A DNA stretch of 40,363 nucleotides, taken from contig CACFYN010000005.1 in assembly GCA_902570525.1 (NCBI GenBank), positions 1 through 40,363 on the forward strand. Reading direction: 5' to 3'. The notes beneath the pieces were generated by a model. The model was not told where the DNA came from and did no database searches. It was given only the letters and a program-made list of their open reading frames with translations. Positions within the stretch are counted from its first letter, which is position 1. Every line of letters starts with the position of its first letter. A program made the position numbers and the translations under genes. Below are positions 7,692 through 31,613 of this stretch, piece after piece. Source of the DNA: an uncultured Pelagibacteraceae bacterium. Lineage in GTDB: Bacteria; Pseudomonadota; Alphaproteobacteria; Pelagibacterales; Pelagibacteraceae.

Positions 7692-7808
7692 TTAATCATT
7701 TATAAGATAAATTAATAAAAAAATTGCAAAAATGTAATTTTTAACAACTTCATATCTAAAAAAAATGATAAATGCTAAAAACCCAATAAATACTACATTT
7801 TTGAACAC
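7692..7808 (-). CDS. Possible 38-aa membrane peptide, GTG start
   Basis: Open frame starting GTG right after an in-frame stop. The product reads MFKNVVFIGFLAFIIFF, then RYEVVKNY, then IFAIFLLIYLIND: two hydrophobic segments separated by a short charged turn, with a polar end. This looks more protein-like than random AT-rich frames, but there is no clear ribosome-binding site and the length is minimal. The GTG lies inside the 28-bp palindrome. It may be a small membrane protein, a remnant, or chance. Confidence 0.3.
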   Translation of the reverse strand: MFKNVVFIGFLAFIIFFRYEVVKNYIFAIFLLIYLIND

Positions 7809-7825
7809 CTATAGGTATTCAAAAA
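7798..7825. repeat. 28-bp near-perfect palindrome
   Basis: Left arm TTTTTGAACACCTA and right arm TAGGTATTCAAAAA match as inverted repeats with one mismatch and no loop. The T-runs are on the outside left and the A-runs on the outside right, the reverse of a rho-independent terminator. It reads better as a protein-binding dyad or a recombination or repeat relic. Confidence 0.6.
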
Positions 7826-8050
7826 TTTGAATATTAAAATACCTTAACGTCTTTAAAACATTTTTTTTATAAGCAATGCATAATTAGAATATGCCATTTA
7901 AACGAGCAGGGAAGGGTCTATTTTTAACAAAACATTGATTATAGTGCAACTTGAAGGGGGAAATTCTTTATTTTAGTGCTTTTAATGAAAAATCATTAAA
8001 AAATGTTGATTTTGTTAGCTTTTTTAACTTATAAATACTCCAAAATTATC

Positions 8051-8320
8051 TTAAATTTTAATTTTTTCAGATCTTAAAAGTCTGATCTTTTCTTTAATTC
8101 CGCCTCGTCCAGAGTAACCTCCAAGGCCTCCATCTGATCTAATCACTCTATGGCAAGGGATTTTTGGGGCATAAGGGTTTTTTGCACAAGCATTAGCTAC
8201 AGCTCTAGCTGCTTTAGGCATTTTAATAGCTTTTGCCAATTGTTTGTAGGTAATAACTTTGCCTTTTGGTATGGTTTTTAGATATTTCCAAACTTTGACT
8301 TGAAATGGAGTTCCCTTCAT
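8051..8320 (-). CDS. Methylated-DNA-protein cysteine methyltransferase, short Ogt/MGMT catalytic domain
   Basis: Repairs O6-alkylguanine by suicidal transfer of the alkyl group to cysteine. I use the inner ATG at 8320 (89 residues, MKGTPFQVKVW...). The longer frame back to a GTG at 8380 runs into the GC-rich RNA candidate, and AGGGG lies 9 nt before the inner ATG. The product is only the C-terminal DNA-binding/catalytic domain: TPFQVKVWKYLKTIPKG, GKVITYKQLA, the arginine-finger region ARAVANACAKNPY, and active-site C56 in IPCHRVI with GGLGGYSG. The cysteine is present, so it is not an alkyltransferase-like (ATL) protein. The N-terminal domain of full Ada/Ogt proteins is absent. Confidence 0.85.
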   Translation of the reverse strand: MKGTPFQVKVWKYLKTIPKGKVITYKQLAKAIKMPKAARAVANACAKNPYAPKIPCHRVIRSDGGLGGYSGRGGIKEKIRLLRSEKIKI

Positions 8321-8370
8321 AAAGAAAAACCCCTGTTTCCTTGCACTTTTTACGGTGCAAAGAACAGTAA

Positions 8371-8508
8371 GTTTTGGCACGTCGTTGTATGCGCTACCGC
8401 CATGCCTCCCGCTTCACGATTTTAGCGCTACTCCGCGAAGCTTTCTGCCCCCTGGGCTTGGTCCTCTCGGCCTTTCCCCAGTTGGCCAGTTAAGAGTTGC
8501 CTCTTAAT
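8371..8508 (-). ncRNA. GC-rich structured RNA candidate, unidentified
   Basis: Positions 8381-8490 are 67/110 G+C (61%) inside a region near 30%, a contrast seen otherwise only at tRNA genes here. On the minus strand there are several stems: AAGAG-GCAA-CTCTT near the 5' end, closed by a GNRA tetraloop only on this strand; CTGGG...CCCAG; GCTTCGCG...CGTGAAGC (8 bp with one G-U); and GGCATG...CGTGCC. A further stem TTGCAC...GTGCAA (8341-8360) follows. A promoter-like element precedes it. I tested it against tRNA, tmRNA, SRP RNA and RNase P RNA landmarks and found none. It may be an independent small RNA or a leader of ogt. Confidence 0.5.
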
Positions 8509-8514
8509 TAAGCA

Positions 8515-8543
8515 TTTATAACATTCAAAATCAGTTGTATTAA
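8515..8543 (-). promoter_or_regulatory. Promoter candidate for the GC-rich RNA
   Basis: On the minus strand: -35 TTAATA (8543-8538), 17-nt spacer, -10 TATAAA (8520-8515). Transcription would start near 8508, just before the GNRA hairpin, which fits the RNA boundary. Confidence 0.35.
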
Positions 8544-8600
8544 TCACTTTTTAATTGTTTTTAAATTTTTTTTTAACAGCGGTGGATAGTGGGGATAATT

Positions 8601-8765
8601 TTAGTTCATCAATAAAAAAAGCAGCACGAATATACTGATGAAGAATATACCGAATATTATCATTAAAATTCTATTTTTACTTTGATCCGAAATTTTTGAC
8701 CAAAAATGCATGATAAAAAATATTATTATCGGAACACTTAAGCCTATGAGAACATATTTTGGCAT
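8601..8765 (-). CDS. Small two-helix membrane protein, 54 aa, unknown
   Basis: ATG at 8765 to TAA at 8601. The product begins MPKYVLIGLSVPIIIFFIMHFW, goes through a polar loop SKISDQSKNR, and ends with a second long hydrophobic segment ILMIIFGIFFISIFVLLFLL. Two helices of suitable length with positive charge in the loop make a credible integral membrane protein. No family recognised. It lies divergently from the integrase, with only 85 bp between the two starts. Downstream on the same strand are the RNA candidate and ogt. Confidence 0.6.
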   Translation of the reverse strand: MPKYVLIGLSVPIIIFFIMHFWSKISDQSKNRILMIIFGIFFISIFVLLFLLMN

Positions 8766-8788
8766 TCAATTATCTTTAACTTATTTGC

Positions 8789-8846
8789 TTGACATTAGAA
8801 ATGCGTTATATTATTACTAATGATAATTAATTGTTATCAATAGTAA
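8789..8846 (+). promoter_or_regulatory. Integrase promoter with overlapping 33-bp dyad operator
   Basis: -35 TTGACA (8789-8794), 17-nt spacer, -10 TATTAC (8812-8817), start codon at 8851. A dyad spans 8814-8846: left arm TTACTAATGATAA, 7-nt centre TTAATTG, right arm TTATCAATAGTAA, with one mismatch in 13 pairs. It covers part of the -10 and all expected start positions, the layout of a repressor operator. The inner part (GATAAT...TTATC) resembles Fur-type boxes, but that identity is only a resemblance. Confidence 0.6.
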
Positions 8847-8850
8847 TTAT

Positions 8851-9804
8851 ATGACTGAGCTAACCACAGACTTAAAAGCGCTTCATGAAGCAACATTAAA
8901 TAACCTTAAAAGTTCAAAAGCAAATAATACATTGAGGGCTTATAAATCTGATTTTAAGGACTTTGGAGCCTTTTGTTCCAAACATGGTTTAAATTCATTA
9001 CCAACAGAACCTAAAATTGTTTCTATATACTTAACTCATCTCTCTAAAAATTCAAAAATGAGCACTTTAAGAAGAAGATTAGTATCAATAAGCATGGTTC
9101 ATAAGCTTAAAGGACATTATTTAGATACAAAACATCCAATTATAGTTGAAAATCTAATGGGTATAAAAAGGGTTAAAGGAAGTATTCAGAAAGGCAAAAA
9201 ACCTATATTAATCAATCATTTAAGATCAATAATTAATGTAATAAATGAGCAAAAAACTGAAGAAATAAAAAAACTGAGAGATAAGTCAATAATCTTAATT
9301 GGTTTTGGAGGTGGTTTTAGAAGAACAGAGCTTATTTCAATTGATTATGAGGATTTAGAATTTGTACCTGAAGGTCTAAAAATAACTATTAAAAGATCTA
9401 AAACTGATCAATTTGGCGAAGGAATGACTAAAGGACTACCCTTCTTCGCCAATAAAATATATTGTCCTGTTGCAAATCTTATAAATTGGTTAGAGATTTC
9501 TAAAATTGAGTCTGGACCCATTTTTAGAAGATTTTCTAAAGGTTTATCATTATCAGATAAAAGATTAACAGATCAATCCGTGGTTTTACTAATGAAAGAG
9601 TATTTGAAGTTAGCAGGTATTGAAAATAAAAATTTTGCTGGTCATAGTTTAAGATCAGGTTTTGCAACTGTAGCTGCTGATTCAGGTGCGGATGAACGAA
9701 GCATAATGGCTATGACAGGTCATAAAACAACGCAAATGGTTAGAAGATATATTAAAGAGGCAAATATATTTAAAAATAATGCACTTAACAAAATAAAAAT
9801 TTAA
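8851..9804 (+). CDS. Tyrosine recombinase / site-specific integrase
   Basis: XerC/D-like integrase of 317 residues. The N-terminal SAM-like core-binding domain (about residues 10-105) includes SSKANNTLRAYKSDFKDFGAFC. The catalytic domain holds all expected residues: R157 in GGFRRTEL, K184 in RSKTDQ, H265 and R268 in GHSLRSGFAT, H291 in MTGHKTT, and Y300 in RRYIKEA. It therefore looks intact and active. It is not the housekeeping XerC/D by context: it sits alone next to glycan genes and is preceded by a promoter with a large dyad. Its stop overlaps the convergent GT11 gene by 4 bp. Confidence 0.9.
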   Translation: MTELTTDLKALHEATLNNLKSSKANNTLRAYKSDFKDFGAFCSKHGLNSLPTEPKIVSIYLTHLSKNSKMSTLRRRLVSISMVHKLKGHYLDTKHPIIVENLMGIKRVKGSIQKGKKPILINHLRSIINVINEQKTEEIKKLRDKSIILIGFGGGFRRTELISIDYEDLEFVPEGLKITIKRSKTDQFGEGMTKGLPFFANKIYCPVANLINWLEISKIESGPIFRRFSKGLSLSDKRLTDQSVVLLMKEYLKLAGIENKNFAGHSLRSGFATVAADSGADERSIMAMTGHKTTQMVRRYIKEANIFKNNALNKIKI

Positions 9805-31007: not shown

Positions 31008-31613
31008 TTATTTTGTATTGGATGTTCCGGCTGATACTATAAATTTAGAGGCTTCCTCAAATGTCATATCTAAATATATAATTTCTTTTTTGGGGAACAT
31101 TAATAAAAAACCACTGGTTGGGTTTGGTGTGGTTGGTACAAATACATTAACTAATTCTGTGTTTGTCTTTTTGGAAATTTCACCCTGATTATCTTTGGTT
31201 GCAAAACCAACTGCCCAACTTCCCTTTCTCGGATATTCAACTAAAACAACACTTTTTTTACTTTTATCTTTTGTAGTAAAACTTTCTGTCATTTGATTTA
31301 TTGCTGAATATATCGTTCTTAAAAATGGTATTCTTTTAAAGAGATCATTAATTAATTGTAAAATTTTTTTTCCAATAAATGATACCGAGATACCTCCAAT
31401 AAAGGTAATTACAATTATAGATATAATAATTTCTAGACCAGGTATTGAAAAAGGTAGATAGTTATTAGGATTAATTTCTTTTGGTATAAGTTTTGAGGAG
31501 ATGTCAATTATAAACATAGTCAAGTATAAAGTGATACCTATGGGTATAATTGCAACTATACCTGCGATAAAGTAGTTTCGTAGTTTGTTAAGAATTGAAA
31601 TTTTTTTTTTCAT
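31008..31613 (-). CDS. DUF502-family membrane protein
   Basis: 201 residues with two N-terminal helices (FIAGIVAIIPIGITLYLTMFII and a second near residues 55-80) and a conserved soluble part: KRIPFLRTIYSAINQMTESF, VVLVEYPRKGSWAVGFATKD, FVPTTPNPTSGFLLMFPK. This pattern defines DUF502, present across alphaproteobacteria and plants (LCV-like), with no agreed function. Lies in the usual place next to recG, convergent with it. Confidence 0.88.
   Translation of the reverse strand: MKKKISILNKLRNYFIAGIVAIIPIGITLYLTMFIIDISSKLIPKEINPNNYLPFSIPGLEIIISIIVITFIGGISVSFIGKKILQLINDLFKRIPFLRTIYSAINQMTESFTTKDKSKKSVVLVEYPRKGSWAVGFATKDNQGEISKKTNTELVNVFVPTTPNPTSGFLLMFPKKEIIYLDMTFEEASKFIVSAGTSNTK

Follow-up and report, generated by a model that had tools for sequence, protein, structure and literature searches.

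The GC-rich island on the minus strand of the window, by which we mean the whole stretch of 40,363 nucleotides analysed here, belongs to the IMES-2 RNA family, and our computations establish its secondary structure, covariation between two of its loops, the presence of the same unit in three chromosomal settings and a patchy presence among relatives. Comparison of the window with Rfam 15 gave a minus-strand match to IMES-2 (RF02035) at 8374–8514 with a score of 158.3 bits (E 8.6e-42); the gathering cut-off of the family is 54.7 bits and the alignment spans the whole model (1–141), including all four hairpins. This is the sole non-tRNA match in the window above its family's gathering score, and there is next to no doubt about the assignment. 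In identity the RNA is ordinary: IMES-2 is an already catalogued marine RNA family, of which this is a well-supported further example. An earlier note on this DNA had regarded the RNA as probably unclassified and had proposed a search of Rfam and its marine IMES families; that search was decisive, and the label of an unclassified RNA falls away.

Identity and features of the locus

The island is as real as the earlier note had made it. G+C is 0.61 across 8375–8474, compared with 0.18–0.36 in most 100-base windows of 7800–9200, where ogt peaks at 0.48. The minus-strand core folds more stably than its shuffles (z −3.31; 1 of 200 equally good), as does the core together with the hairpin downstream of it (z −4.47; 0 of 200 equally good). 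The claimed GNRA tetraloop is present on the minus strand, the promoter-like element that had been placed 7 nt before the first stem is an extended −10 (Table 1), and the landmarks described as missing are indeed missing: ARAGORN calls no tRNA or tmRNA at the island, its four tRNAs sitting elsewhere in the window, and Rfam gives no tRNA, tmRNA, SRP or RNase P RNA match there. The limits first proposed, 8371–8508, do hold the island, but the RNA extends slightly beyond them, both in the Rfam match and in the probable transcript, which runs from about 8508 to about 8321.

Table 1. Positions in the window of IMES-2, its parts and its flanking signals.
Feature	Position	Strand	Remarks
IMES-2 RNA core, RF02035 model 1–141	8374–8514	−	Rfam alignment, score in text
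Probable transcript, about 185 nt	8321–8508	−	Predicted ends, from −10 and T-run
Upstream element A, tandem 9-mers TTATCCCCA CTATCCACC	8581–8598	−	DnaA-box-like
Upstream element B, AAAACAATTAAAAAGTGAT	8543–8561	−	Imperfect inverted repeat
Extended −10, TGTTATAAA	8515–8523	−	Ends 7 nt before first stem
Hairpin 1, GCAA tetraloop	8490–8507	−	All cells paired (75 sequences); both-side changes in 3/7 pairs
Hairpin 2 (outer, middle and inner stems; GAGA-type loop)	8445–8489	−	Both-side changes in 6/11 and 3/4 pairs
Hairpin 2 internal loop, GAAA/CAAG	within 8445–8489	−	Conserved
Hairpin 3	8411–8441	−	Both-side changes in 8/8 pairs
Kissing contact 5' strand, GCGCUA (probable)	8423–8428	−	Loop of hairpin 3
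Hairpin 4	8376–8406	−	Both-side changes in 3/9 pairs
Kissing contact 3' strand, UAGCGC (probable)	8391–8396	−	Loop of hairpin 4
Probable intrinsic terminator	8321–8367	−	Hairpin 8333–8367, G-run, T-rich TTTTTCTTT to 8321
ogt, 89 aa	8051–8320	−	O6-methylguanine DNA methyltransferase DNA-binding domain, PF01035, E 3.5e-34

Covariation of the four hairpins

We examined 111 loci, two of which (L020 and L038) share one genome, so that 110 of the 140 positive genomes described below are covered. The loci reduce to 77 distinct cores, and 75 of these make up alignment A2, from which the diverged L032 and L033 were left out. When the Rfam-type helices and the contact between the loops of hairpins 3 and 4 are taken together, 94.7% of the cells in A2 are paired, compared with 31–41% in slid versions. 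Changes on both sides of a pair occur in 358 cells, compared with 93.4 in shuffles, and fall in 26 of the 45 named pairs, compared with 16.8, a number that none of 500 shuffles reached. Of the 39 nested pairs RNAalifold independently recovers 37, and 22 of the 37 predicted pairs carry both-side changes. Two pairs of the Rfam line fare poorly: that between columns 111 and 129, in hairpin 4, never forms in the 75 sequences, and that between columns 28 and 59 fails in 49 of them. Conservation is 0.905 in unpaired and 0.835 in paired columns, a difference that is not significant (Mann–Whitney p 0.07). The structured minus-strand RNA with a conserved fold that had been expected for a SAR11-type genome is borne out by compensatory changes.

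A probable kissing contact between hairpins 3 and 4

In addition to the nested helices, the loops of hairpins 3 and 4 probably form a kissing contact, as judged by their complementarity and covariation. In the 75 distinct RNAs 97.8% of the 450 cells of this contact are paired, 10 being unpaired, and GCGCUA faces UAGCGC in 61 of the 75 rows. Three of the six pairs show both-side changes, two are invariant and one varies on one side; the 7 cells with both-side changes compare with 0.6 in shuffles, and the number of pair types is matched by 47 of 500 shuffles. Both loops have changed concordantly in four rows, with AGCACU and AGUGCU in L048, UCGCUG and UAGCGA in L044, and AGUACU in both loops of L113 and L049. 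By eye, the loops of L032 and L033, from a diverged genus, are also AGCACU and AGUGCU. The both-side-change cells are confined to five of the 75 rows, one of which, L131, has a broken pair too, with the next-to-outer pair lost and U–G at the outer pair. A U–C mismatch is found at the outer pair in eight rows, and L042 loses that pair as well.

The two loops of L048, like those of L044, are unlike each other yet complementary, which argues that they are not two copies of one protein site or seed. Non-palindromic loops disfavour simple homodimers of one loop, and the contact may form either within one molecule or between two. The consensus line printed for RF02035 has no loop–loop pairing, whereas here the two loops pair and covary; Rfam consensus lines generally leave pseudoknots out.

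Upstream control region and 3' end

Element A, element B and the extended −10 follow one another upstream of the RNA, and this layout, in which the −10 was recognised by eye, is common to all three chromosomal settings in which IMES-2 is found. Sites of the TGnTANNNT kind recur, again by eye, in the upstream regions inspected; a simple consensus scan of 8250–8700 called no −35/−10 pair. Element A consists across loci of two tandem 9-mers of the TTATCCACA / NAATTCACA type, a motif that we take to resemble DnaA boxes. It scores 12–18 out of 18 letters at every one of the 111 loci; among 2220 shuffled upstream stretches 246 reach a score of 12 and 42 reach 13, scores that describe the element and do not test it independently, since the consensus was drawn from the same sequences. 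Element B ends in GTGAT and in some relatives is a clean inverted repeat, ATCAC-N7-GTGAT. The spacing between A and B is 9–13 bp in 40 loci and 19–23 bp in 71, with none at 14–18 bp, counts that come from related genomes and hence from loci that are not independent; the setting in which ogt follows holds both classes (15 and 71 loci). Proteins may bind at elements A and B, and spacing classes about 9–10 bp apart would fit two proteins on one face of the DNA.

In about a third of each of two genomes the composite site at IMES-2 scores 47.6 and 41.1 and the next site at most 12.0, so that the control region looks dedicated to IMES-2. The pattern CAANNANNAAGTGATA gave 11 exact matches in 9 of 17 genomes, of which five are at IMES-2, one is in a CDS of the window (31521), four are in open stretches of at least 344 aa and the remaining one precedes a gene that we take to be of the LacI type. 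It missed the IMES-2 sites of G000, G048, G040 and G060, and no shared regulon for the upstream element was found with it in these 17 genomes. A near-perfect copy of element B at 31516–31538 (+), scoring 26.4 bits compared with 23.2 at IMES-2, sits inside the minus-strand CDS 31008–31613 and is probably there by chance. The resemblance of the boxes to DnaA boxes raised the idea of a replication origin, which we rejected as far as coarse GC skew, sampled from about a third of two genomes, allows. In G001 IMES-2 lies at 303 kb and the skew minimum near 120–180 kb; in G015 IMES-2 is close to the maximum of the skew.

At the other end, an intrinsic terminator probably closes IMES-2. A hairpin with a run of at least four T was called in 91 of the 111 loci, at least two of these calls (L095 and L100) being weak, and the other 20 loci have a hairpin by eye with a T-run that is shorter, broken or missing. 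We grade the terminator as probable only, because the simple scan of 8250–8700 called none and these 20 loci are without a called hairpin and T-run. From such signals we infer the transcription of IMES-2, its strand and its ends.

Three chromosomal settings

In 86 of the 111 loci, the window included, ogt lies downstream of IMES-2 on the same strand. Another 23 loci have before IMES-2 a gene that we take, by sequence recognition, to be mnmA, and in 21 of these 23 a convergent gene without a Pfam match lies behind the RNA. The two loci of the third setting have an SNase-domain gene before IMES-2 and a convergent SRAP-domain gene after it. All three settings share the two-part upstream element and the downstream hairpin, which argues for a free-standing RNA and not for a leader of ogt. 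We are accordingly confident that IMES-2 is a gene in its own right.

A leader controlling ogt had been one suggestion of the earlier note, and a cis-acting leader or attenuator would account for the downstream, same-strand ogt of the commonest setting and for the likely Shine-Dalgarno sequence of ogt at the base of the closing hairpin. However, the 25 of 111 loci without a downstream ogt retain the upstream elements, the downstream gene is not constant (the next detected gene is convergent in 23 of the 25), and in 15 of 15 IMES-2-negative members of the window's genus that we looked at, ogt is retained near the same recombinase and lacks the insert. In the negative genomes ogt starts, by eye, close behind the preceding gene or overlaps it. 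Control of ogt in cis is thus very improbable. The window's ogt encodes the methyltransferase DNA-binding domain alone, in just 89 aa. The listed ORF (8051–8380) has its GTG at 8380, inside the RNA gene; the likely start of ogt is the ATG at 8320, directly before which the T-rich stretch ends.

On the other side of IMES-2 a 54-aa probable membrane protein without a Pfam match is encoded upstream at about 8600–8770 (−), and small proteins recur upstream of IMES-2 in some relatives. A tyrosine recombinase of 317 aa lies at 8851–9804 (+), about 330 bp from IMES-2, and by eye glycosyltransferase-like genes adjoin it. In the genomes sampled, the recombinase is at the plus-to-minus skew flip in G001 and near the cumulative skew maximum in G015, and these positions make it probable that the window's recombinase is a Xer-like enzyme of the terminus. 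A tree of 36 recombinase proteins (18 from positive genomes, 15 from negative ones and 3 others; 7 of 25 chosen positive loci yielded no protein and were dropped) needs 8 changes of the presence/absence label, at least 4 of them forced by supported branches, and this gene tree may reflect recombination.

An integrase-family gene so close by, together with the patchy presence of IMES-2, would suit foreign GC-rich DNA, which the earlier note had named as the main alternative, or a DNA recombination site. Against both, the helices covary as RNA, 140 of the 297 genomes drawn from the order share the conserved RNA, and a search of 21 genomes, IMES-2-positive and -negative alike, found the recombinase in all 21. 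Moreover, in G034, G090 and G001 the recombinase and IMES-2 are on separate contigs or far apart, and phage records gave no IMES-2 match. An origin of the island in foreign DNA or a recombination site is extremely unlikely on these data. An att site or mobile element was likewise tried and rejected, on the recombinase being in all 21 genomes and on there being no viral or phage match; 18 viral stretches that matched a short pattern gave no covariance-model match.

Distribution of IMES-2

One copy of IMES-2 is present in the assembly of the window itself, which is 722 kb long and 65% complete. The 140 positive genomes among the 297 drawn from the order carry a single copy each and belong to 4 of 11 genera; they include one partial match (G230, model 8–70). 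IMES-2 is present in 75 of the 150 good-quality genomes of this sample. The 157 genomes without a match, some of which are incomplete, indicate that whatever IMES-2 does is dispensable. A sample of the class, the order included, gave 2 positives in 289 genomes, namely the window's genome and one of the same family. A pattern scan of named genomes found at least 120 stretches, and the 80 records listed are all Pelagibacteraceae, Pelagibacterales or Candidatus Pelagibacter; from the titles among the matches listed we infer the host of the positive genomes drawn from the order.

Divergent homologues were sought in IMES-2-negative genomes. Model R1 gave 8 weak matches at E ≤ 1 in 40 genomes, and all 8 were rejected, each lying inside an open stretch of at least 350 aa; four of them fall in what we recognise, presumably, as the end of rpoA. 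Model R2 gave 8 matches at E ≤ 0.1 in 31 genomes: four are strong and come from genomes already known to be positive, and the other four are weak and come from the same four genomes as the rpoA matches. R1 missed G001, which R2 and Rfam detected, and very diverged forms may exist elsewhere.

Meyer et al. 2009 ranked the GC-rich intergenic regions of HTCC1062 (PMC2704228), and the HTCC1062 table in the available part of that paper has entries for tmRNA, 4.5S, RNase P and riboswitches. Neither 6S RNA nor ogt appears in it, in keeping with the patchy presence of IMES-2. In its available text a giant squid genome paper takes its own IMES-2 matches as possible marine contamination and mentions the occurrence of IMES-2 in marine data (PMC6962438). 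No mention of IMES-2 was found in the available text of a northern Red Sea study (PMC5069720), and the main texts, as available, of a 2026 sRNA review (PMC13414033) and of a paper on 104 motifs (PMC2864571) contain no word beginning IMES. The literature searched, to which the founding papers did not belong, yielded no functional study of IMES-2.

Candidate mechanisms

Taken as a whole, the data are best explained, in a reading that we hold with moderate confidence, by a free-standing RNA that acts in trans and is recognised by a protein. The proposed unit would consist of its own upstream element and extended −10, an RNA of four hairpins and a terminator hairpin that closes it, the whole running to about 185 nt, and its output would be set by the dedicated upstream control site. 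Kissing of hairpins 3 and 4 would fold the RNA into a compact shape, a protein would recognise it by that shape, and capture of the protein could serve to titrate it or to scaffold a complex. Protein binding by the RNA, its phenotype and the function of the terminator are predictions drawn from sequence.

We searched 18 genomes of the family, 11 of them IMES-2-positive and the window's own genome lying outside the set, for the partners of known small RNAs. RNase P RNA was found in 18 of 18. Hfq turned up in none of the 18 (5 of 14 control genomes positive), and neither did ProQ (1 of 14 controls), CsrA (3 of 14) or 6S RNA (RF00013; 5 of 14 named controls, Caulobacter among them). IMES-2 thus resembles Hfq-dependent trans-acting sRNAs in its probable own promoter and intrinsic terminator and differs from them in that no Hfq was found in the 18 family genomes. 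Similarly, it shares with CsrA sponges of the CsrB/RsmY type a compact, hairpin-rich and possibly protein-binding RNA, but these genomes gave no CsrA. It is like 6S RNA in being a small free-standing non-coding RNA of similar length and unlike it in architecture, and RF00013 has no match in the window either.

That the 18 genomes gave RNase P RNA and no 6S RNA, which the same search did find in controls, would suit a SAR11 counterpart of 6S RNA that binds RNA polymerase. The consensus, however, is without the long bubble-containing hairpin, and IMES-2 itself is unmatched in 157 of the 297 genomes; we consider this role highly improbable. An antisense sRNA independent of Hfq, in which the hairpin 3/hairpin 4 loop sequence GUAGCGC would pair with target mRNAs and the loop–loop contact would be the resting state, draws support from the conservation of the 12 contact loop columns (mean identity 0.962) and from a probable promoter and terminator tail of its own, like those of many sRNAs. 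On the other hand, the loops change together and do not stay fixed, and neither Hfq nor ProQ was found in the 18 genomes, which makes the antisense reading unlikely.

Pairing between the two large loops leaves no long, conserved single-stranded stretch that would be an obvious seed, and the lack of a free conserved seed together with that of known chaperones favours recognition by shape or protein over antisense pairing. Because unpaired columns are not significantly better conserved than paired ones, the case for protein recognition rests on the missing seed and the missing chaperones, and from these sequence features we would choose it over antisense only tentatively, with slightly more doubt than conviction.

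Implications

A trans-acting RNA would be of mechanistic interest here because the genomes of this family seem to be without the usual RNA chaperones. The host family, the gene borders, the control region and the probable tertiary contact make IMES-2, an orphan motif, open to testing, as does its natural presence and absence at the same place within one genus. In its fullest form, which we consider very unlikely, the protein-capture reading would make IMES-2 a portable, dispensable cassette of SAR11 bacteria lacking Hfq, ProQ and CsrA, switched by two helically phased proteins, one of them possibly DnaA at the tandem TTATCCACA-like boxes, with the RNA, kissed through hairpins 3 and 4, capturing a protein. 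Few cells in the ocean are as abundant as SAR11 bacteria, and if the cassette reading were true, it would couple gene control in them to the state of replication or growth.
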